Origin: Chitinivibrionales bacterium
Lineage (GTDB): Bacteria; Fibrobacterota; Chitinivibrionia; Chitinivibrionales; FEN-1185
DNA: 64,000 bases
Assembly (NCBI GenBank): GCA_035516255.1
Contig: DATJAL010000054.1
Coordinates: forward strand, 1 to 64,000
Direction: 5' to 3'
Positions 5,726 to 34,304 of this stretch are shown here, piece after piece. Numbering within the stretch: the stretch's first letter is position 1; each line of letters opens with the position of its first letter. A program made the translations under genes and the position numbers. The notes under the pieces were generated by a model, which was given only the letters and a program-made list of their open reading frames with translations, ran no database searches and was not told the origin of the DNA.

Positions 5726-5926
5726 TGGATTAGATCCATCGTAAACCGATTGCTAAAGATCTATGACATTGCAGGACGGCTGGTTTGCTCGCTTGTCAAG
5801 AAGAAGCAGGCCGGTGGAAGGTATGCTGTTGTCCCGCCTGTAGAGAATATACGATCGGGCAATTATCTTTATTCATTTACCGCAGGGGAGTATAAGGTAC
5901 AGAATAAATTTGTTATCATCCGATAA
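5726..5926 (+). pseudogene. orphan C-terminal sorting-domain remnant
   Basis: In the 327-base gap between two minus-strand genes, one plus-strand frame from 5726 to the TAA at 5924-5926 encodes a clear T9SS-type sorting-domain tail: IYDIAGRLVCSL, then GGRYAVVP, then IRSGNYLYSF and a terminal NKFVIIR. This is the final strand pattern of a secreted protein's beta-sandwich. A stop codon (5723-5725) lies just upstream and no start codon or body follows from it, so this is the tail end of a decayed secreted-protein gene. No other gene is visible in the gap. Confidence 0.7.
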
Positions 5927-23215: not shown

Positions 23216-26167
23216 TTAATTTGTTATTGCAAACTTTTGTGTCACCATAGATTGGCCGCTTTTACACCTCACAAGATAAATTCCTCTTTTCAAAGGCTTT
23301 GAAATCAGGCTTGTCGTAGAGGAATTGTTCTGTTGCGAAATTGCTAGTTCTTGTACGAGACGGCCGCGAAAGTCGAAAATGGAAACGGCAGTTGATGTGT
23401 TAGGGACGTCCCGAAAAATGACCAGGACCTGACGGGACCTTATGGGACGGATAAGAAGTGACGGCGCTTGACGATATTTCGTTGATGGCGACGCGGAAGA
23501 AAAGACACCTTCTATCCGGTAATTATCTATTCCCGCAAGCCTGTTAATCCTGAAAGAACCGTCAGTTTGAGGCGCAAGCGTTATTTCCTGAGAATTTCCA
23601 TTTGTAAACACTCTCATCCCGGCCAGCGGCCACGGCAACTTGCCCGGATTAACGTCAACAAAACTCTGGCTCCCGATAAAAGCCAGATGGACCCACGCGC
23701 TGTCCTTTCTCAAAAACACCGCGCCTGCTGATTTGACGCCGCCCGCCTCGGTGGAAGCGCCGTAGCCGTTCACGAAAAGACGGTCGGAAAGCTTTGCGCA
23801 CGCGATTGTACCCGAACCTGTCGACAGGCGGTACACTTCCTGGCTGCCGTCGGTGGCGTAAAATCCCCGTGATGCGAGTGTCGTTGGGCCCAGCGCGTAG
23901 GTTTTCGCGGAGTCGAAATTGACCGTAACGGTCCAGCCGTCATCAAATGCCGTCTGCTGGACCATTGCATCCGGCGTTATAAAACTGTGGCCGGTCATCC
24001 TGGCAAACCCGACGCTCCTGGTAACTGCCGACACGAGGTTGTAACTTGTCAAGAAACGTTCGAAGTTGGCCTTCCAATAGCCTGTATCGGGCGGCATGAA
24101 CAGCGGCATGGAGGCATAAAGAATGTTGAACAGGTCCTTCGCATCCCAGAACGCGGGCACGCGGGACACGCCGTCGCCGGTGTACCAGGTGGGGACATGC
24201 ACGTCGTGATAGATGAGGCCGTGCAGCGGCACGCGGATGGCCGGGTTCACGTCGTAATGGACAAAATCGGAATCCGGAGAAGCGGGAGTCATCCAGTCGT
24301 AGCCCGCGTTCGTCGCGGGGCAGGGACTCATGGTCCCTTCGCCGTAATCGACGAACGGGAAAGCAAAGTCGCGGGCCTGCTCGCCGCCGAGCACGAGATT
24401 GAATGTCGTGCGCAGCGTGTCGAACAGCTTTTCGCGCGCAAGAGCGTCGGTGTACCGGTTGACGGGATGCGTCTGCGACCAGCATTCCTCAAGGCCCATG
24501 GCGAGTTCAACGTCGATGAACCGGCAGTTGAGGTGCTTGGTCGCGCGCTCGGCGGCGATGCGTGGAATGGCATACTTGCAGTGTGAGGCAGCGCACACCT
24601 CCTGCGCCTGGAGTGTGCCCCCGCCGCTGAGGTAGGCGAGCCAGCCGTTCATGTAAGAGCCGTCTTCATTGACTATTGCGTCTGTATTGTATCCATCGGA
24701 TTGGTAACCGGCGTTGCCCGGTGGATAGGCGTCGCAGTAGCAGTCGTATTCGCTGGTAAGGAAGCCGAGCGAGTTCAGCGTGTCTGTTACCGCGTTTGAG
24801 AAATTGCCGGAGAAGATTGCCTGGTCCATGCCTTTGTCAATGAGGTTCCGGAAGAAGTCCGCCGTGGGGAGCCAGAACCCTTTGCCAAGAATCCAGAAAT
24901 CAACAGCGCCTTTCATGCGGTTGATATTTGGCACAACCGATGCCTTCTGGGCGAACGTTCGAGCGTACCCGAGCTTTTCCACGTGAGATCGGTACCAGGT
25001 GCACATCGCTGCATATCCGCCGGTATCGATGAGGGTGTAATAAAGTGTTCTGTCCTTGGAAAACAGATGTTTCGCCGCCTCCAGGGTGATGTGCGGCGCG
25101 TTTGCGGTTGTCCCCGCGGCAGGTGTGAAACTCACGCGCGTGAACCACGGGTCGTCGGAAGTGATCATGTAGCCGGAGGTCTTGTCCGTCACGCCGGTAA
25201 AACACAGGTCGCTCTGCCAGTCGTGCATGCCGATCCAGTAATACCTGCTCATGTACCCGGGCGCGCCCTGCGCCGGGCAGATGACGCCCGTTCCCTTCGG
25301 GATTATGAGGAAGTCGGTGGCCTGCGCGGCGATGGGACCGGGAAAATCCAGGTCGCTTGACATGGGGGAAGCAGCGGTACCGGAGAGCCTGATACCAAGG
25401 GCCGGTCCCTCAAGCCACATCGAAATTGCAACGGGCCAGTTGTCCGGCAGATACGTGCAATGAAACACCAGCGAATCGGGAAACGAATCGACACTTGAGG
25501 TCTGAAAAACGCCCACACCGGAGGCCGCATACGTTCTGGAGGTGGCGGTGCTCTGCAGGGTCAGATCGAATGAGATTGGATTGATGATGACCTTGATGTT
25601 CGCATTCTGTAAAACATACGGCCGCGCGTAACCGGCCGGAACGCTGTCGACCAGCGTCAGTGAGAAATCGTCGGCATAGAGGCCGCAGGTGTCGTTTCCC
25701 ATGAGCCGCGGCCGTATGGTGGCGATGTGCGTCGGGATAAGAAACCGTGTGCTGTATTGCGTAAATCCTGTGGAAAGGGTGCATTGCTTTGCCGCGTACG
25801 ACCAATCCACGGCGTTGTTCATGGAATCATAAAGAACAACGCTGATCTCGGCGGATGCGCCGGAAGGCAGCGTGTCGGTGCGTATCCAGGCGCTGTATTC
25901 GTAAAGCTGGCCCGGTTTCACCGTGACCACGGCTGAAGGGCTCACGCTCCAGTCCAGGGTTCCCCAGTGCTTGACCTGCGCGGCCTTTGCCCCGCTGTGA
26001 ACGGGCGCGGCCACTACTATGAGCGAGCCGGCGCCAGCATCGCGAGACCAGAACGTGTTCCAACCGGTCAAATCGTTTTCAAATCCCGGGTTGGTGATGA
26101 GGTTCTGGGAAAAAGCGCCGCAAAAGGCGGTAAGGCAAATGACAAATATTCCGATGAAAAGATTCAT
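23216..26167 (-). CDS. secreted TIM-barrel glycoside-hydrolase-like protein with sorting domain
   Basis: A 983-residue exported protein. Signal peptide to about 20; residues 22-170 form a CBM4/9-like jelly roll (NLITNPGFENDLTGW to LYADDFSLTL). The centre (about 180-780) resembles large TIM-barrel hydrolases of the GH101 / DUF5696 type: a FIDVELAMGLEEC segment, VLGGEQARDF, VDYGEGTMSP and LIYHDVHVPTWYTGD, with several candidate acidic catalytic residues. The last 75 residues are a T9SS-style sorting domain (VSIFDFRGRLVQEL, then RGIYLVRCKSGQ). It would bind and cleave an unidentified glycan outside the cell. A terminator separates it from the GH3 upstream, so it has its own promoter. The family assignment is from memory of motifs and could be wrong. 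Confidence 0.7.
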   Translation of the reverse strand: MNLFIGIFVICLTAFCGAFSQNLITNPGFENDLTGWNTFWSRDAGAGSLIVVAAPVHSGAKAAQVKHWGTLDWSVSPSAVVTVKPGQLYEYSAWIRTDTLPSGASAEISVVLYDSMNNAVDWSYAAKQCTLSTGFTQYSTRFLIPTHIATIRPRLMGNDTCGLYADDFSLTLVDSVPAGYARPYVLQNANIKVIINPISFDLTLQSTATSRTYAASGVGVFQTSSVDSFPDSLVFHCTYLPDNWPVAISMWLEGPALGIRLSGTAASPMSSDLDFPGPIAAQATDFLIIPKGTGVICPAQGAPGYMSRYYWIGMHDWQSDLCFTGVTDKTSGYMITSDDPWFTRVSFTPAAGTTANAPHITLEAAKHLFSKDRTLYYTLIDTGGYAAMCTWYRSHVEKLGYARTFAQKASVVPNINRMKGAVDFWILGKGFWLPTADFFRNLIDKGMDQAIFSGNFSNAVTDTLNSLGFLTSEYDCYCDAYPPGNAGYQSDGYNTDAIVNEDGSYMNGWLAYLSGGGTLQAQEVCAASHCKYAIPRIAAERATKHLNCRFIDVELAMGLEECWSQTHPVNRYTDALAREKLFDTLRTTFNLVLGGEQARDFAFPFVDYGEGTMSPCPATNAGYDWMTPASPDSDFVHYDVNPAIRVPLHGLIYHDVHVPTWYTGDGVSRVPAFWDAKDLFNILYASMPLFMPPDTGYWKANFERFLTSYNLVSAVTRSVGFARMTGHSFITPDAMVQQTAFDDGWTVTVNFDSAKTYALGPTTLASRGFYATDGSQEVYRLSTGSGTIACAKLSDRLFVNGYGASTEAGGVKSAGAVFLRKDSAWVHLAFIGSQSFVDVNPGKLPWPLAGMRVFTNGNSQEITLAPQTDGSFRINRLAGIDNYRIEGVFSSASPSTKYRQAPSLLIRPIRSRQVLVIFRDVPNTSTAVSIFDFRGRLVQELAISQQNNSSTTSLISKPLKRGIYLVRCKSGQSMVTQKFAITN

Positions 26168-26256
26168 AAGGCCTCCACGGTAAAATAGCCACAGAGACGC
26201 AAAGTAACGGATGGCTAAAATAAAATAATAAAAAATTTTCGATCAATAAGCTGTAA

Positions 26257-26292
26257 TAAAAAAACAGCCGCGGAAGAAATTCCGCGGCTGTT
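26257..26292 (-). terminator. Rho-independent terminator of the GH3 gene
   Basis: A perfect 13-base stem (AACAGCCGCGGAA with TTCCGCGGCTGTT) around a four-base loop. On the minus strand it is followed by a run of T. It lies 25 bases past the GH3 stop codon. Confidence 0.88.
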
Positions 26293-26317
26293 GAAATCGA
26301 CGGGAAGAATACCGAGG

Positions 26318-28612
26318 TTAATCTGTCAATCCGAACCCGTAAGCGAAACGTCCGGTCTGGCCGTCGCCGGAGTTGATGGGCTCCTGCGCAAGGTTCATGG
26401 GCCATGTGACCGGCAATTTGCCGCTGAATTTGACATCGCCGAACAGAACATCGGAGATGCCCGCGCCCTCGGTGCCGGGCAGGCCCGACCAGATGAATGC
26501 ATCGCAGTTGTCAATTACCGACGTGATGTCGAGCACCCTGCCGGCAATGAGCATCCCGATCACCTTCTTGCCGGCCGTATGGGCCGCGGCGATCTCAGTG
26601 ATCACGGCCTGGTTCGAGCCGGTGGCATCGTCGCCCGTGAGGTTGATGGCGCCGAACGACGTCTCGGCGTACGGGTTCTCGCTGAGCACCGCGAGGATAT
26701 AGTCGGAGGTGCCCACCGCTCCCGGGCTTGCCACATAGCTCACGTTGGCATCCACCGCCTGGCATGCGGTCTTGATCGACGTGCCGCCGCCGCCCGGAAT
26801 GGGTCCCTGCTGTCCCTGCCAACTCACCGTCCATCCGCCGCACTGAATTCCTATATTGTCTCCGGCGGTGCCCCAGATTGCCAGGTTGGCAGTCTTGGCC
26901 ATGGGCAGGACATTGTTTGTATTTTTAAGGAGCACCTGTGAGGCCGCGACGCACTGCCGCGCCACCGTCCGGTGTGCTGCGCTTCCGACAAGAGCGGTAA
27001 GAGCGCGGTTCGTTGTGTACTGCCTCGAGTCGAACAGGTTCATCCAATATTTTACACGGAGCACACGTTTCACCGCGTCATCCAACCTTGCCTGGTTAGC
27101 GGCATAAATACCGTTGAGCGATCCGATAATTCCAGTGCTGGCCTCGGGCGCCATCTCCACGTCGAGCCCAGCCTGCTCGCTGGTACCTAGAGTGGCCGCG
27201 TCCCAGTCGCCCACAATGAATCCCTGGAAACCAATTGAATCAGACTTCAGGTAACCGGTCATAAGCGTTTTATTAATATGCATTGGCGTGCCGTCGCACC
27301 ATTTAGAAAACGAAGGCATGATGGTTGCCACACCGGTTTTGACCGCGGATGCGTAACCCGGCAGGTTGATGGCCCGCGCCGTTGCATCGGGCCCCACTGT
27401 CGTCCCTGCGTTCACGCCGTTAGCCGTGTTGCCGTCGCCCGCGAAATGCTTGCAGCACATGGCATACGTCAAGGGATTGGACAGGTCGGTGAGCTGCCCG
27501 CCCAGCACAGCGTGTCTGGCCATGATCTGGGTGCGTTCCGGAGTTTCGCAGAAGCCTTCATACGCGCGTCCCCAGCGGTCGTCGCGGATGACGGCGATGC
27601 AAGGTCCATATCCCCAGTTGCAGCCCGATCCGCGAACTTCAAGCGCGCACACACGAAAGGCCTTCTGGATCAGGAGCGTGTCCTGGATTGCGCCCATCGC
27701 AAGGTTGTGCGGGAGCATGGTCGCGCCCGGGACAGCGCTCGCGCCGTGAACAAAGTCGTATGCGGCAAGGACCGGTATCTTCAGGGAGCCGTTCATCATC
27801 GCGGTCTGAACGGCGTCTACGCCATTCGCGCACGCCGAAGCGCTTGACCCCAGCAGCGCGCCGCCGCCGCCGAATAAACTTCCGCAATTGTTGTTTACAA
27901 TGGTATTCACATCTTGCGTCGGCGGCATGCAGAGCTGGGCGCATTTCTGAGTCTGGCTCAGCGCTGCAAGCTTGGTATTGACTTCTCCTTCGATGTCAAC
28001 GGTGGTTAATGTCTGGTCGCCGATATTGAGGCCGTAGGAGACAATAGGTATGTAAACAGGGGTGTAGCCGGTTCTTCCAATTCGAACCGTATCAGCGTTC
28101 GCGAGTTTCTTTGCCATGACCACCGGTTCGCTCGACGAAGAAAGGACAACAGTATATCCATTGTTCTTTGCACCGGTATTGAGCATTTTTTGACAGGTCA
28201 CGTTGTTGCCAGCCCTGATTTTGAGCAAATACATCGATTTGGCGAGTTTTGTTGAAAGCGGTTCCAAGAAATAAGTTCCCTTGTCAAGTTTGCCATTGAC
28301 TGTTTCGATTTTTTTTCCTGCCATATCATAAACTTCGATGGTGACAGGGCCGTTCGCGAACATGGTGACTTTCGGATTTTGTCCAAGAGGTTGTTTGACA
28401 CCTACATTGATGCCGAAAGTGCCGTCTGCGCGCGAGAAATCCCACGACAGACTTCTGGCAGCACTGGTGTAGGTGACGGTGGCGCCTTGAAAGGGGTTTC
28501 CACCAACTAAAACGCGACCTGTTGTCTCGAAATCACCGCTCTGTCCGAATACAACGACGTATGCCAAAAGCACCGCCGATACGACGGAAGCAAACCTTAC
28601 AAAGGTTCTCAT
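26318..28612 (-). CDS. secreted GH3 glycosidase with N-terminal sorting-domain-like module
   Basis: A 764-residue protein with a signal peptide to about 24. Residues 30-145 look like a sorting domain moved to the front: VTIEVYDMAGKKIETVNG, KGTYFLEPLS, and KSMYLLKIRAGNNVTCQKML. A short linker leads to a GH3 catalytic region from about 200: KHFAGDGN, and the nucleophile D469 in FIVGDWDA; the second domain includes GKLPVTWP near the end. GH3 enzymes remove beta-linked glucose or similar terminal sugars. Normally the sorting module ends such proteins; here the C-terminus stops at the GH3 fold. The start has a strong ribosome site (AAGGAGG). An inverted repeat at 28744-28767 lies upstream. Confidence 0.88.
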   Translation of the reverse strand: MRTFVRFASVVSAVLLAYVVVFGQSGDFETTGRVLVGGNPFQGATVTYTSAARSLSWDFSRADGTFGINVGVKQPLGQNPKVTMFANGPVTIEVYDMAGKKIETVNGKLDKGTYFLEPLSTKLAKSMYLLKIRAGNNVTCQKMLNTGAKNNGYTVVLSSSSEPVVMAKKLANADTVRIGRTGYTPVYIPIVSYGLNIGDQTLTTVDIEGEVNTKLAALSQTQKCAQLCMPPTQDVNTIVNNNCGSLFGGGGALLGSSASACANGVDAVQTAMMNGSLKIPVLAAYDFVHGASAVPGATMLPHNLAMGAIQDTLLIQKAFRVCALEVRGSGCNWGYGPCIAVIRDDRWGRAYEGFCETPERTQIMARHAVLGGQLTDLSNPLTYAMCCKHFAGDGNTANGVNAGTTVGPDATARAINLPGYASAVKTGVATIMPSFSKWCDGTPMHINKTLMTGYLKSDSIGFQGFIVGDWDAATLGTSEQAGLDVEMAPEASTGIIGSLNGIYAANQARLDDAVKRVLRVKYWMNLFDSRQYTTNRALTALVGSAAHRTVARQCVAASQVLLKNTNNVLPMAKTANLAIWGTAGDNIGIQCGGWTVSWQGQQGPIPGGGGTSIKTACQAVDANVSYVASPGAVGTSDYILAVLSENPYAETSFGAINLTGDDATGSNQAVITEIAAAHTAGKKVIGMLIAGRVLDITSVIDNCDAFIWSGLPGTEGAGISDVLFGDVKFSGKLPVTWPMNLAQEPINSGDGQTGRFAYGFGLTD

Positions 28613-28743
28613 GATCCGATCCTCCTTGTTTTTTTGGGATTTTTCAGTGAAGGGAAGCGTGGAAAAGTAATTAAGTCAATGAGGCGCATTTTTTTTTCGA
28701 CATCGGGAAAAAGAGATATTTTGCCCCCCTCCAACAATAATAT

Positions 28744-28767
28744 AAACATTTCTTCAACGAAATGTTT
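28744..28767. promoter_or_regulatory. perfect inverted repeat upstream of the GH3 gene
   Basis: AAACATTTC, six bases, GAAATGTTT: a perfect 9-base dyad 132 bases upstream of the GH3 start. The AT-rich dyad has the size of a transcription-factor operator. On the plus strand it is followed by a run of T but no gene precedes it there, so a terminator role is unlikely. Confidence 0.4.
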
Positions 28768-28840
28768 GAAAAATATTCTTCTTTTTTTAACTTATTAATG
28801 GGTCAGAATATAGATGACATTTTTGATGGAAACCGATATC

Positions 28841-28901
28841 GCTCGTGGTGAGCTTGTTGAACCATGAGCGTTCACCCTTCGAAAAGTTCAAGGCGAATGG
28901 T
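28841..28901. repeat. intergenic hairpin repeat, GTGAGCTTG type
   Basis: The first half forms a hairpin (CGCTCGTGGT against ACCATGAGCG) and the second half, TTCACCCTTCGAAAAGTTCA, a weaker one. The composition strongly resembles a repeat I know from many environmental bacterial genomes (GTGAGCTTGTCGAACC paired with CCTTCGACAAGCTC). Only one copy is in this window. Confidence 0.55.
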
Positions 28902-28977
28902 TGCCATCTATTAAATGACCGGATTAATAATTGGCGATCAATTATTTAGTTATTTGATGAAAAATCTGTAAAACCAA

Positions 28978-29063
28978 TGCCCGGGGCCGGAATCGAACCG
29001 GCACAGCCGTTGCCAGCCAAAGGATTTTAAGTCCTTTGTGTCTACCTGTTCCACCACCCGGGC
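28978..29063 (-). tRNA. tRNA-Leu (anticodon UAA)
   Basis: An 86-base class II tRNA on the minus strand. The acceptor stem GCCCGGG (29063-29057) pairs with CCCGGGC at the 3' end, discriminator A at 28978. The anticodon stem-loop AAGGACTTAAAATCCTT places TAA at the anticodon. The long variable arm (GGCTGGCAACGGC) and T loop GGTTCGATTCC are typical of leucine tRNA. CCA is not encoded. Confidence 0.95.
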
Positions 29064-29121
29064 TTGGAATAAATATAGTTGATTCGATTATTTGCGAATA
29101 GCGGTTCGTTGTTCTTCAATG

Positions 29122-31134
29122 TCAATGACCAAGTATCCTTCGCAGCTCTTCGATCCGGTCGCGCAGCTTTGCCGCTTTTTCGAATTCCAGCCTTCTTGCC
29201 GCGTCGCGCATGTCGTTTTCAAGCTTCTTGATGGTGAGTTCCAAATCCTTTTCATCGGTAATGGATATAACTGGAGTTTTTGTGGAATATGGCGCGGCTT
29301 TTTCCCTGACTTCGCCGGCGGCGGCAGATGATTCCTCCTCAACAGGGGAGAACAATCGCTCCTGGATGGGCCGCTGGATCGTGACCGGCGTGATGCCGTG
29401 AGCTTTATTGTGCTCGATTTGCTTCATGCGCCTGCGCGTGCTTTCTTCAACGGTTTTTTTAATCGAATCGGTGATGATATCGGCGTAGAGGATGATTTTC
29501 CCCTCAACATTGCGCGCGGCCCGGCCCGCGATCTGTATGAGCGAGCGCGCCGACCTGAGGAACCCCTCGCGGTCAGCGTCGAGGATGGCCACGAGCGCGA
29601 CTTCCGGAAGGTCAAGGCCCTCGCGCAGCAGGTTGATGCCCACGAGCACGTCGAACTCGCCGAGCCGCAGGTCGCGGATGATGTCCGAACGCTCGAGTGT
29701 CTCGATTTCCGAATGCAAATACCGCACGCGGAAGTCAAGCGTCTCCAGGTATTCGGTGAGATCCTCGGCGGTCTTTTTGGTGAGCGTGGTGACCAGCGCC
29801 CGCTGCTTTTTCTCAACAACAACGCGCAGCTGTTCAATGAGGTCATCGACCTGGTTTTCCGCCGGCCGCACCTCGATGAGCGGGTCCACGAGGCCGGTGG
29901 GCCGGATCACCTGCTCAACGATGACGCCGCCGCTTTTTTTCAGTTCGTAGTCGGCAGGCGTGGCGGAAACAAAAATCACCTTGTCGTTCATCGCCTCGAA
30001 CTCGTTGAACCTGAGCGGCCGGTTGTCTAGCGCGCAGGGGAGCCGGAACCCGTGCTCCACGAGCGTTTCCTTGCGCGCGCGGTCGCCGTTGAACATGCCC
30101 TGTATCTGCGGGACCGTGGCATGCGATTCGTCAATGAAGGTGAGGTAGGGCGGCTTGAAGAAGTCGATGAGGGTGAACGGCCTGCTGCCTGGTTCTCGTC
30201 CGTCAAGGATGCGCGAGTAATTCTCGATGCCGGATACGAACCCCATCTCCCGCAGCATCTCGATGTCGTACAGCGTGCGCTGCTCCAGGCGCTGCGCCTC
30301 GAGCAGCTTGCCCGCATTGCGGAACGTCTCGAGCTGCAGCTGAAGCTCCTTGTGGATCTGCAGCACGGCCTGCTCGATGCCGACCCTGGTGGTGGTGAAA
30401 TGCTTTGCCGGGAAAATCGTGATCTCATCGAGCGTCGAAATCACCTTTGCGGTAAGCGGGTGTATCCGCTTGATCGCCTCGATGCCGCTGCCGAACAGCT
30501 CGATGCGAAGCGCGGTGTCGTCGTACGCGGGCTGCAATTCGATGATGTCGCCGCGCACGCGGAACATGCCGCGCTCGAGGACCATGTCGTTGCGCTCGTA
30601 TCGCATGTCGTTGAGGCGGCGGAAAAACCCCTCACGGTCGAGCTCGGTGCCGGTCGCTATTTTCATCGCTGCCGCTGCATAGGATTCCGGCGAGCCTATG
30701 TTGTAAATACACGATACGCTCGCAACGATGAGAACATCTTTACGCGAGAGAAGAGAACTCGTGGCCTTGAGCCGCAACCGGTCTATCTCGTCATTGATCT
30801 CCGAGGTTTTTTCGATATACGTGTCCGTGGAGGGAATATATGCCTCGGGCTGGTAATAATCATAGAAGCTCACGAAATATTCAACGGCATTTTCCGGAAA
30901 ATACCCCTTGAATTCCTGGAACAATTGCGCGGCTAGCGTTTTGTTGTGCGAGATGACCAGCGTCGGCATCTGCAGCTGCTCGATGACGTTTGCCATGGAA
31001 AATGTTTTGCCTGAACCGGTGACGCCGAGCAGCGTCTGGTGCTTTGCGCCACGCCGCACACCGTCAACGATCTGGCGGATTGCCTCGGGCTGGTCGCCGG
31101 CGGGCTTGAAGTCGGAAACGAGCTTGAAATTCAT
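29122..31134 (-). CDS. uvrB: excinuclease ABC subunit B
   Basis: A 670-residue UvrB, the damage-verifying helicase-like subunit of nucleotide excision repair. All helicase motifs are visible: LLGVTGSGKTF (Walker A, near 36), the beta-hairpin YYQPEAYIP, TFIDESHATVPQ (Walker B), FVSATPADYE, LVGINLLREGLDLPEV and QIAGRAARN. A C-terminal UVR domain (AAKLRDRIEELRRI) for UvrC contact closes the protein. The length is normal. It is a housekeeping gene set inside the polysaccharide-hydrolase block, with tRNA-Leu downstream. No uvrA or uvrC is in the window. Confidence 0.98.
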   Translation of the reverse strand: MNFKLVSDFKPAGDQPEAIRQIVDGVRRGAKHQTLLGVTGSGKTFSMANVIEQLQMPTLVISHNKTLAAQLFQEFKGYFPENAVEYFVSFYDYYQPEAYIPSTDTYIEKTSEINDEIDRLRLKATSSLLSRKDVLIVASVSCIYNIGSPESYAAAAMKIATGTELDREGFFRRLNDMRYERNDMVLERGMFRVRGDIIELQPAYDDTALRIELFGSGIEAIKRIHPLTAKVISTLDEITIFPAKHFTTTRVGIEQAVLQIHKELQLQLETFRNAGKLLEAQRLEQRTLYDIEMLREMGFVSGIENYSRILDGREPGSRPFTLIDFFKPPYLTFIDESHATVPQIQGMFNGDRARKETLVEHGFRLPCALDNRPLRFNEFEAMNDKVIFVSATPADYELKKSGGVIVEQVIRPTGLVDPLIEVRPAENQVDDLIEQLRVVVEKKQRALVTTLTKKTAEDLTEYLETLDFRVRYLHSEIETLERSDIIRDLRLGEFDVLVGINLLREGLDLPEVALVAILDADREGFLRSARSLIQIAGRAARNVEGKIILYADIITDSIKKTVEESTRRRMKQIEHNKAHGITPVTIQRPIQERLFSPVEEESSAAAGEVREKAAPYSTKTPVISITDEKDLELTIKKLENDMRDAARRLEFEKAAKLRDRIEELRRILGH

Positions 31135-31291
31135 AGGGTAAAAGATACATGAGGAGGGATAATAAATTAAACAAATTTGTCTGAATGAACAGCAATTGCC
31201 TTGAGGTGCTTACGTTTTTGAATGTTGCAGAACAATACATTTTGATTGGAAAATCTGAGGAGCGAGTGCTGCTCGGAATCGGTCGAAATCT

Positions 31292-32662
31292 TCAATAATA
31301 ATATCTAATTACGAATAGAGATTGAGATATCCGCACCGGTAAATAAATCCTCATAGATCCGACACCACTCTCCGTTCTCTCAAATTTCCAATCAAGTCTT
31401 CCTTTAACATCAAAAATATCAACGCCTTGAACATTTTCAGGTAATGTAATACTGGAAGTAAACGGTTCGCTTTTTACAATCGATAATGCTTTTATATTCT
31501 TATTTTTCGCTGCAAGATTCGCAATGGTCGCCGTCGTGTAATCCACCATCCCGGGATGGGCGTCACGGAACGCCTTGAGCTGGTTTTTAACGCTGTCCCA
31601 GGTGCCTGCGCCGTCGTTCGCGTTGTACGACCACGGCATTATGCCGCAATAACCGTTCGTAAAGCAGTTGGCGATCATTTGGGACACGGTATAGATGCCG
31701 TCCTCGGCAGGGCATTCGCCCACGAGAACGGGTTTGTCAAGTTGCCACCAGGCCGGCGTTTTGGCGGGTGAGAGCTGGAACGGATCATATCCCCAGTCCG
31801 TGTTGTTCATCCAGTCATAGTAATGAATTTCATAAAAATCTAAAGTTGACTTTGCATCGTTGGCACATGCTGCCTTAAGAGCTGAATCGCTCCACATGTT
31901 AAGTACAGCAGGACCTACGCGGGGAGAGCACCATTTGAGCGATGCTGAGCCAACGGTCACCATCTTGCTGGAATTCGAATGGATTGCAGACGCGATCATG
32001 CCGCAAAAGCGCTGCATCTCCACCTTGAGCACCATGTCGCCGGCGCCGCCGGCCTGGATGTCGGAAACGCTCCATTCCGGCTCGTTTATGATTTCCCACG
32101 CGAAAAGATTGGGCGTATTCGCGAACGCGGTCACCATGGGGATGAGCGCGTTGGTGATGTACGACTGGGTCTTCTGCGCGCTGCGGATCAGGTCGCTGTG
32201 CTTGCCGCCGTATTTTCCCGCGCCGCTCGTATTGTCCTTTGTCATGTCGAAAGACCAAAGACACGGCATCACCATCACATTGTGCGACTGGCCGCGGGCA
32301 AGGATGTCGGTGAAATCGGAGAGAAAAGAGGTGCCGAGTCCCGTTACATACCCGCTGTCATCGAAAGTCGGCGAGGTGCGGCCGTCGCAATGGATCCAAA
32401 GCCGGACACAGTTGACGCCATACTGCTGGCATTGGGTGAAGAACGTTTCAAACCATGTCGGGTTGTAAAGATGTCCCCACTCGTAATGCGTGCCCGCGTC
32501 AGAGCCGAATTGATTCCAGGGAACGTTGATGCCGTTGATGTAATAGGACTTGCCGTTGTAGGTGATTGTGGCGGAAGATGATGGAATGGATAATATCAGG
32601 ATCAAGATTAAGCAAAAAATCAAAGGGAAAAACATTTGGCATTTTGCAGGATGATTCTTCAT
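31292..32662 (-). CDS. secreted GH5-type glycoside hydrolase (mannanase/cellulase-like)
   Basis: A 456-residue secreted enzyme. A signal peptide (FFPLIFCLILILILSIP) leads into a (beta/alpha)8 catalytic domain; acid/base E194 stands in WEIINEPEW and nucleophile E316 in VLVGECPA, the GH5/clan A pair. The NVPWNQFG and CVRLWIH segments near the front resemble beta-mannanases. The last 75 residues form a degenerate sorting-domain-like tail (VQGVDIFDVKGRLDWKF, then SQSLFVIRYYY). A TTG five codons upstream is open, but the ribosome site AAAGGAG falls inside those codons, so the ATG at 32662 is the start. It shares a strand with the esterase at 32942, probably acting on the same polysaccharide. Confidence 0.85.
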   Translation of the reverse strand: MKNHPAKCQMFFPLIFCLILILILSIPSSSATITYNGKSYYINGINVPWNQFGSDAGTHYEWGHLYNPTWFETFFTQCQQYGVNCVRLWIHCDGRTSPTFDDSGYVTGLGTSFLSDFTDILARGQSHNVMVMPCLWSFDMTKDNTSGAGKYGGKHSDLIRSAQKTQSYITNALIPMVTAFANTPNLFAWEIINEPEWSVSDIQAGGAGDMVLKVEMQRFCGMIASAIHSNSSKMVTVGSASLKWCSPRVGPAVLNMWSDSALKAACANDAKSTLDFYEIHYYDWMNNTDWGYDPFQLSPAKTPAWWQLDKPVLVGECPAEDGIYTVSQMIANCFTNGYCGIMPWSYNANDGAGTWDSVKNQLKAFRDAHPGMVDYTTATIANLAAKNKNIKALSIVKSEPFTSSITLPENVQGVDIFDVKGRLDWKFERTESGVGSMRIYLPVRISQSLFVIRYYY

Positions 32663-32941
32663 AATATCTCCTTTCAAATATTCTTTCCGATGAAATTCTT
32701 CTTAAATATAAAGCTATTTGCTGATGATTAGTGATGGTTTTTTCATCAAGTGAATGATGCAATATTGAAGAAAAATCTTCAGGATGGCAATAAATTAGGC
32801 CGATCCGGACTGTTTTAAGCTGTGCGGGAGGATATGATGCGCCGTAGCCGCAAGCTTGGCATGGCCGGACCGGCCTTCAAAGTGGGTCAGTCAATGATAA
32901 CAACGTTTGAGGGATTGGGAATGTTACGGGAAAAATTGGAA

Positions 32942-34060
32942 TTATTTAATGAGTAGCTTGAAAACACTGCTCCCTGTTTTTAAAAAATAAACGCCGTTAG
33001 CCTTGACAGGCAGTTTGTCGGCCAGGGATGCAGGGGTGAAGTTTTTAGTGGCATGCACATTGGCAACCAGCCTGCCGGTAATGGAATAGATTGCGACTAT
33101 CCCATCATCAGTCATAAAAGGCGAATGTGCGTTTACCTTAGACAATATTGACGTGTTCAGGTCTGAAGGAGAAACATGAACCGTATTGGTCACCAGCATG
33201 TCGTCGTTTGTCGTGCTTTGTCCTACTAAAGCTCTGTAGAGACCAGTGTCTTTTGCAAAAAGAACTTCATCATTCCCTCCCACGGCGGCGGCAACGGGGA
33301 CGTCCGTGCAATACCATTGGTAAAAAGAACCGTTCTGCGGCGCGGCAAGCCTGTTTTTCTGCTGGAAAACCTTGAGCGTGTCTTTCATGAACATGCCGTA
33401 GATTTTCTGCGCCATCATCAGGTATCCCGCCGCATTGGGATGGATGCCGTCGGGAAACAGGCTTTTCTGGCTGCTCATCAGCGTCCACATATCGATGAGC
33501 GGGATGCCTTTGTCAAGCACAACGGTCTTGATTTTAGGCAATATCTCATAATGGATGACCATGCTGTCGATGAGATAAGCGGTGCTGAACGCGGGCGTGG
33601 GGTAGAACGCCCATACTTTGGGATGCGTTGGCAAGTAGCTGAACGTGTCTACCATGGCCTCGTAATCGCCGATGAATTCGCCGCTGTGCGAAGGCCAGTT
33701 GTCGACGCCGCCGCTCCCCTTGGAATCGTTGGTGCCCAGCTCAATGGTCACGATGTTGGGAAGAAACGCCATTGCCTCCTTGAATTGGGTGATCCCAAAG
33801 GTCCAATAAGGTTTGTTCCCAAGCTTGAGCATGGTGGCGCCCGCCACCCCGCAATTGAGGACGTTGTAGCCGGATCCGAGCATCTGCTGCAGACGCGCGG
33901 GGAACGATGCCGTGTCGGCGCCGTCAAGCCCCTCGGCCTTCGTGATGCTGTTGCCCACGCAGGAAACGTGGATGGTATCGGCCGGAAAAGCAAGGTGCTG
34001 GATTGAAATGACAATGAGGAACGAAAGAAAGAAGGATTTTACAAATGGTGGAGTTTCCAT
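32942..34060 (-). CDS. secreted SGNH/GDSL esterase with sorting domain
   Basis: A 372-residue exported hydrolase. After a signal peptide (FLSFLIVISIQHLAFPA) the SGNH blocks appear in order: CVGNSIT with nucleophile S38, a block II glycine in NCGVAGAT, block III IELGTNDS, and block V DGIHPNAAGY with the Asp-His pair. Such enzymes deacetylate carbohydrates such as acetyl-xylan or sialate esters. The final 75 residues are a sorting domain (VAIYSITGRLVANVH, then ANGVYFLKTGSSVFK). The frame is open 25 codons further upstream, but the ATG at 34060 directly precedes the signal peptide. It lies in the same orientation as the GH5 gene, 279 bases upstream of it; the gap shows no gene. Confidence 0.85.
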   Translation of the reverse strand: METPPFVKSFFLSFLIVISIQHLAFPADTIHVSCVGNSITKAEGLDGADTASFPARLQQMLGSGYNVLNCGVAGATMLKLGNKPYWTFGITQFKEAMAFLPNIVTIELGTNDSKGSGGVDNWPSHSGEFIGDYEAMVDTFSYLPTHPKVWAFYPTPAFSTAYLIDSMVIHYEILPKIKTVVLDKGIPLIDMWTLMSSQKSLFPDGIHPNAAGYLMMAQKIYGMFMKDTLKVFQQKNRLAAPQNGSFYQWYCTDVPVAAAVGGNDEVLFAKDTGLYRALVGQSTTNDDMLVTNTVHVSPSDLNTSILSKVNAHSPFMTDDGIVAIYSITGRLVANVHATKNFTPASLADKLPVKANGVYFLKTGSSVFKLLIK

Positions 34061-34304
34061 TGGCGTTTCACGGTATAATATACAACTTTTGTGGTGGATT
34101 TGTAGGAAATATGGAGGATGGATTTCCGTTTTCATGTATTAAAGAGTCCAAGAATCAAACCCGTCACGATGCGTCAAAAATGATGCTTTAGTACCGCGTA
34201 AAACAAGAGCAAATGATGAAATCATCTTTTTCTTGCTTCTCCCTCAAAGACCTTCTAATTTCATGATTCACTCTAGAACGGATTCAAGCTAAGGAGAGAC
34301 AATT

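Follow-up and report, generated by a model that had tools for sequence, protein, structure and literature searches.

The GH3 enzyme encoded in the window (the whole 64,000-nucleotide stretch of Chitinivibrionales DNA analyzed here) carries a composite module close to its N-terminus. This module is almost certainly a T9SS type A CTD-like β-sandwich nested, by way of two flexible linkers, within a CarboxypepD_reg-like domain. It is used in a modular fashion across Fibrobacterota, where it replaces the C-terminal sorting tail rather than occurring beside one. We found no description of such a nested module in the open-access literature. At ~180 residues, it represents a defined, testable unit.

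Anatomy of the GH3 protein and its nested module

The features of the protein are listed in Table 1. Its catalytic part matches GH3 β-glucosidase-like enzymes (PF00933/PF01915) and scores 176–182 bits against the BglX and exo-1,3/1,6-glucosidase equivalogs, well under their cut-offs of 666–1330 bits. A search of named genomes returned a single close relative, from Chitinivibrionales bacterium STD1_157, with a Flexithrix GH3 as a distant one.

The initial annotation had placed a sorting-like domain between the signal peptide and the GH3 catalytic domain, and this proved correct. TIGR04183 matches residues 83–142 with 23.7 bits in the whole protein and 27.0 bits in the module alone; the cut-off is 23 bits, and the window copy lies above it. 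PF18962 stays sub-threshold on the module, at 19–22 bits, and other module copies often fall under the TIGR04183 cut-off in the genome-wide scan. The C-terminus was also rightly said to lack a sorting domain, since GH3_C reaches residue 762 of 764. The extent given for the module, 28170–28540 (residues 25–148), was too short: the host domain resumes after the sorting-like insert and takes the module to about 27995. Thus, "sorting-domain-like" describes the insert and not the outer part, and the annotation's own counter-proposal, folding as a different, known domain, applies to the CarboxypepD_reg-like outer part and not to the CTD-like insert.

Table 1. Features of the GH3 protein and a comparison tail, in window coordinates.
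Feature	Position	Strand	Basis or remark
GH3 ORF	28612..26318	(-)	764 aa
Sec signal peptide, residues 1-24	28541..28612	(-)	Sequence and hydrophobic-core scan; no lipobox
Whole composite module, 181 aa	28537-27995	(-)	CarboxypepD_reg/SusC-NTE-like domain interrupted by T9SS-CTD-like domain
Outer domain, N half, CarboxypepD_reg-like (strands 1-4)	28400..28537	(-)	AF2 strands at 2-46; PF13620/PF13715 matches in siblings; SusC NTE profile match
N-side linker	28373..28399	(-)	Median 30 aa over 88 copies (counted from the alignment column of module residue 46 to that of residue 63)
Nested T9SS type A CTD-like domain	28184..28378	(-)	TIGR04183 27.7 bits (genome-wide scan); gingipain CTD profile matches; Foldseek 8glk_D TMt 0.61
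C-side flexible linker, A/S/G-rich	28094..28171	(-)	pLDDT < 50 over most of its length (model 2); median 29 aa
Outer domain, C half (strands 5-7)	27995..28093	(-)	Motif 'DTVRIGRTGYTP...'; AF2 strands 150-176; siblings' Pfam match spans junction
GH3 N-terminal catalytic domain PF00933	27053..27949	(-)	160 bits, above cut-off
GH3 C-terminal domain PF01915	26327..26935	(-)	103 bits, above cut-off; stops 2 residues before C-terminus
Ordinary C-terminal T9SS tail (comparison)	23225..23428	(-)	TIGR04183 39.3 bits, the genome's best score

With AlphaFold and Foldseek, the structure prediction that the initial annotation had proposed recovered a CarboxypepD_reg-like fold and a probable CTD-like fold. 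In the AlphaFold model, built from an 88-sequence alignment (pLDDT 82.7), outer halves of four and three strands enclose the inner sandwich (pLDDT ~90), and the C-side linker is disordered. A profile of 19 module copies compared with solved structures gave the same partition: positions 1–44 match the SusC N-terminal extension, and positions 50–109 match the gingipain R2 CTD.

Rejoined in silico without the insert, the sibling outer halves scored above the PF13620/PF13715 cut-off in five of the seven cases tested, at 38–54 bits and across the junction. The sibling N halves alone reached 27–37 bits, and the C halves alone had no Pfam match. Pfam does not recognize the diverged window copy (a sub-threshold 19.6 bits), and its outer domain is therefore identified by homology and structure. 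Foldseek aligned model 1 over the whole query, across the insert, with the SusC N-terminal extension 9hfj (TMt 0.81, rmsd 2.4, E 0.075); 9hfj lay outside the top 50 for model 2. Asp149 in the C half is invariant or nearly so. The module thus resembles CarboxypepD_reg/CarbopepD_reg_2 (PF13620/PF13715) in the rejoined halves of those five copies, and 9hfj in fold. It differs from them in that the domain is split after strand 4 by a foreign domain of 58 aa with two linkers of ~30 aa each. The module had no Pfam match to a CBM family.

Two simpler architectures were considered and rejected. A stand-alone new domain does not fit, as each part matches a known fold. A tandem of two domains does not fit either, because the C half makes sense only as the end of an interrupted CarboxypepD_reg domain. 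Divergence of the inner part follows that of the outer part (Mantel r 0.47, permutation maximum 0.08), so that the two travel as one unit.

The inner domain resembles the T9SS type A CTD (TIGR04183/PF18962; gingipain RgpB 5hfs/5ag8, NucA 8glk) in basic charge, an invariant Gly and a Lys/Arg column, and probably in fold. For the inner part of model 2, Foldseek found 8glk_D, the CTD of a translocon-bound T9SS substrate (TMt 0.61, rmsd 4.0, probability 1.00, E 0.068). The Lys near the C-terminus of type A CTDs is reported to be almost invariant and functionally important (PMC10994853). In the 88 module copies, the column aligned to it holds K in 56% and R in 27% (K/R 84%); the window copy has K, within "CQKML". 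The inner domain is basic like the tails (net +4 versus +5), and the modules share the invariant Gly with same-genome tails. Conservation of the GxY motif is looser in the modules, with G at 37% and Y at 65%; in the best-scoring tails, which are a biased sample, both residues stand at 100%. The final aliphatic strand, behind the Lys, is also weaker in the modules than in tails. A phylogeny of the 58-aa domain gave no clean split between inner domains and tails, the best split being 84% correct. Unlike the CTDs, the inner domain lies within the chain near its N-terminus, has another domain on either side and precedes its cargo.

It might be argued that the insert is a generic Ig-like β-sandwich that merely scores against TIGR04183. 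Single-copy scores lie close to the cut-off, the Foldseek matches of the whole models are for the most part unspecific, to Ig-like proteins, and no match of the module models attains E 0.001. We consider such an artefact very improbable, given the independent matches to gingipain CTDs and to the translocon-bound substrate CTD, the Gly and basic column shared with same-genome tails, and the canonical CTD motifs, e.g., NFPNPFNP, that nested copies of the Flexithrix phylum (see below) keep.

Recurrence, placement and cargo

The search for the same domain order in Fibrobacterota, also suggested by the initial annotation, showed that the module is no oddity of a single enzyme: it is recurrent, phylum-wide and always N-terminal. 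A profile search found 31 full-length copies in this genome, and another GH3 of the same genome carries a copy 52% identical to that of the window; the window module is therefore not a chance occurrence. All 31 full copies start at residue 19–39, directly behind the signal peptide. A scan of the complete module ORFs with a model built from this genome's tails found no further tail at their C-termini. By comparison, the 30 highest-scoring ordinary TIGR04183 matches all stop no more than 21 aa short of the C-terminus. Cargo among the scanned genome copies includes GH3, GH30, GH64-like, GH12, GH116, a phosphoesterase and proteins without assignment; GH45-like enzymes, esterases, Fib_succ_major, FGE-sulfatase and TPR proteins were seen in other genomes.

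Across the phylum, the module profile matched in 147 of 151 Fibrobacterota genomes, a count that includes inner-only matches. With ~31 copies in one genome and a presence across almost the whole phylum, the module looks like a standard part. Eight other Fibrobacterota genomes showed a clean split, with the full module N-terminal and the inner-only match C-terminal. A hydrophobic-core scan placed a Sec signal directly before the module in all 88 distinct full copies. A lipoprotein anchor for the set is ruled out, as a possible lipobox occurs in only 2 of these 88 and the window copy has none. One module protein (L133:336-2000, the same gene as L015) has a plausible lipobox, LLAGC, within its signal peptide, and a few module proteins might be lipoproteins.

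Outside the phylum, Flexithrix dorotheae gave 85 profile matches, each to the N half, which often lay in an ORF of ~1,100 aa, or to the inner part, with no full-length module among them. Across 396 genomes from the phylum of Flexithrix, the matches listed were almost entirely inner-only. At least five nested loci were found there (L214, L219, L221, L222 and L223), a lower bound since eight candidates were scored per genome; in each, the insert lies inside a CarboxypepD_reg-like domain behind a signal peptide.

Possible roles in targeting and docking

The genome encodes T9SS components, with matches to SprA (TIGR04189, 482 bits) and PorU-like (NF033707, 507 bits). Co-occurrence of the module with SprA is uninformative because SprA is near-universal in the phylum, matching in 148 of 151 genomes; four genomes have an SprA match without a module match.

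The retained Lys/Arg column, the basic charge, the exclusion of C-terminal tails and the polymer-acting cargo together favor T9SS-linked targeting or docking. We tentatively suggest, from sequence and at somewhat less than an even chance, that the module stays uncleaved at the N-terminus and serves targeting or docking, being recognized through its T9SS-CTD fold. The GH3 enzyme would first leave the cytoplasm via Sec. The flexibly tethered CTD-like fold might then be recognized by the outer-membrane apparatus of the T9SS (an SprA/PorV-type pocket), whereby the enzyme downstream would be brought to, or retained at, the cell surface. As the cargo lies C-terminal of the CTD-like domain, PorU-type tail removal could not take place in its usual way, and the module would be expected to remain attached to the mature enzyme, serving as a dock. 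The relaxed GxY motif and last strand and the internal position speak against a T9SS role, and the internal position in particular disfavors the standard route with PorU cleavage.

About equally possible is a re-use in which the export role has been lost and the module acts as a stable N-terminal spacer or binds carbohydrate, peptidoglycan or the envelope. The enzymes would then be periplasmic or exit otherwise, e.g., in outer-membrane vesicles. The same relaxed motif and strand and the internal position fit this reading, as does the occurrence of CarboxypepD_reg-like domains in many contexts, including SusC N-terminal extensions. GH3 glucosidases are often periplasmic, which also counts in its favor. 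Furthermore, a role in carrying CAZymes has been proposed for outer-membrane vesicles in Fibrobacter (PMC8092306). However, placement is strictly N-terminal after the signal peptide in proteins without C-terminal tails, the Lys/Arg column persists at the frequency given above, and for cargo acting on polymeric substrates (GH45, GH64, GH12) no other outer-membrane route was recognized.

A folding or pro-domain, which would serve the exported enzyme as an intramolecular chaperone or regulate its activity and might be cleaved later, appears improbable. The position directly behind the signal peptide suits it, and the long linkers could hold protease sites, but cargo folds as unrelated as GH3, GH30, GH12, GH64, GH45, phosphoesterase, TPR and FGE-sulfatase would be unusual for a dedicated pro-domain.

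T9SS signals in the literature are C-terminal (PMC11205867, PMC12618676), and the papers covered contained no report of the export of a protein with an internal T9SS signal. The closest precedents come from the same phylum. The C-terminal basic domain BTD/FPm-1 of Fibrobacter was proposed as a T9SS signal (PMC6851124). It shares with the module the occurrence on secreted polysaccharide-degrading enzymes and a basic T9SS-like domain; in contrast to the N-terminal module, it is C-terminal and, according to that study, absent from mature-protein peptides. The GH19 chitinase CHISP_3496 of Chitinispirillum alkaliphilum has an internal Por domain, mentioned without comment (PMC4814513); the sorting domain is internal as in the module, and neither its odd position nor any nesting is remarked on in the passages concerned.

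A further step would be that the nested domain functions as a T9SS signal away from the C-terminus: the T9SS would recognize the CTD-like fold on its two linkers close to the N-terminus and bring C-terminal cargo to the surface without signal removal. This seems rather unlikely. If it were true, Fibrobacterota would have a second class of T9SS substrates; T9SS substrates are counted genome-wide via C-terminal domain families. An internal signal usable by the T9SS would revise a defining rule of the system and point to a second way of surface display in lignocellulose degraders. Otherwise, TIGR04183 matches in Fibrobacterota can be something else, and substrate predictions are affected.

GH3 genes without the module and the gene neighborhood

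The genome has four GH3 genes without the module. Three are immediately preceded by a gene encoding a small secreted protein with a T9SS-like CTD, and the fourth follows one of these three GH3 genes. The small proteins (G000:C25:40846-41262 (-), C9:23615-24118 (+) and C56:1798-2220 (+); further loci L169, L171, L173, L174, L187, L193 and L198) consist of a signal peptide, ~30 aa with an SxxFxF motif and then only the T9SS-like C-terminal domain. The pair of small protein and GH3 also occurs in four other genomes, making ten cases in five genomes, all with SxxFxF. The other GH3 genes of the compared genomes have neither the module nor a small-protein neighbor. Therefore, some of the GH3 enzymes are linked with the CTD-like fold in two forms, in cis and as the product of an adjacent gene, and the small proteins are a possible in-trans counterpart of the module.

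Elsewhere in the window, a T9SS-tail-like fragment with no enzyme in front of it lies at 5744-5917 (+), in a 66-aa open frame (25.4 bits), and is probably the remnant of a decayed gene. The gene next downstream of the GH3 gene (23216..26167, 983 aa, CBM4_9/GH129-like) carries the comparison tail of Table 1. These two belong to a secreted carbohydrate-active cluster at 23216-34135 that also includes a GH5-like protein and a GDSL esterase, the latter similar to AxeA1 and with a weak tail. The cluster is interrupted by uvrB and a tRNA-Leu gene (28978-29063).
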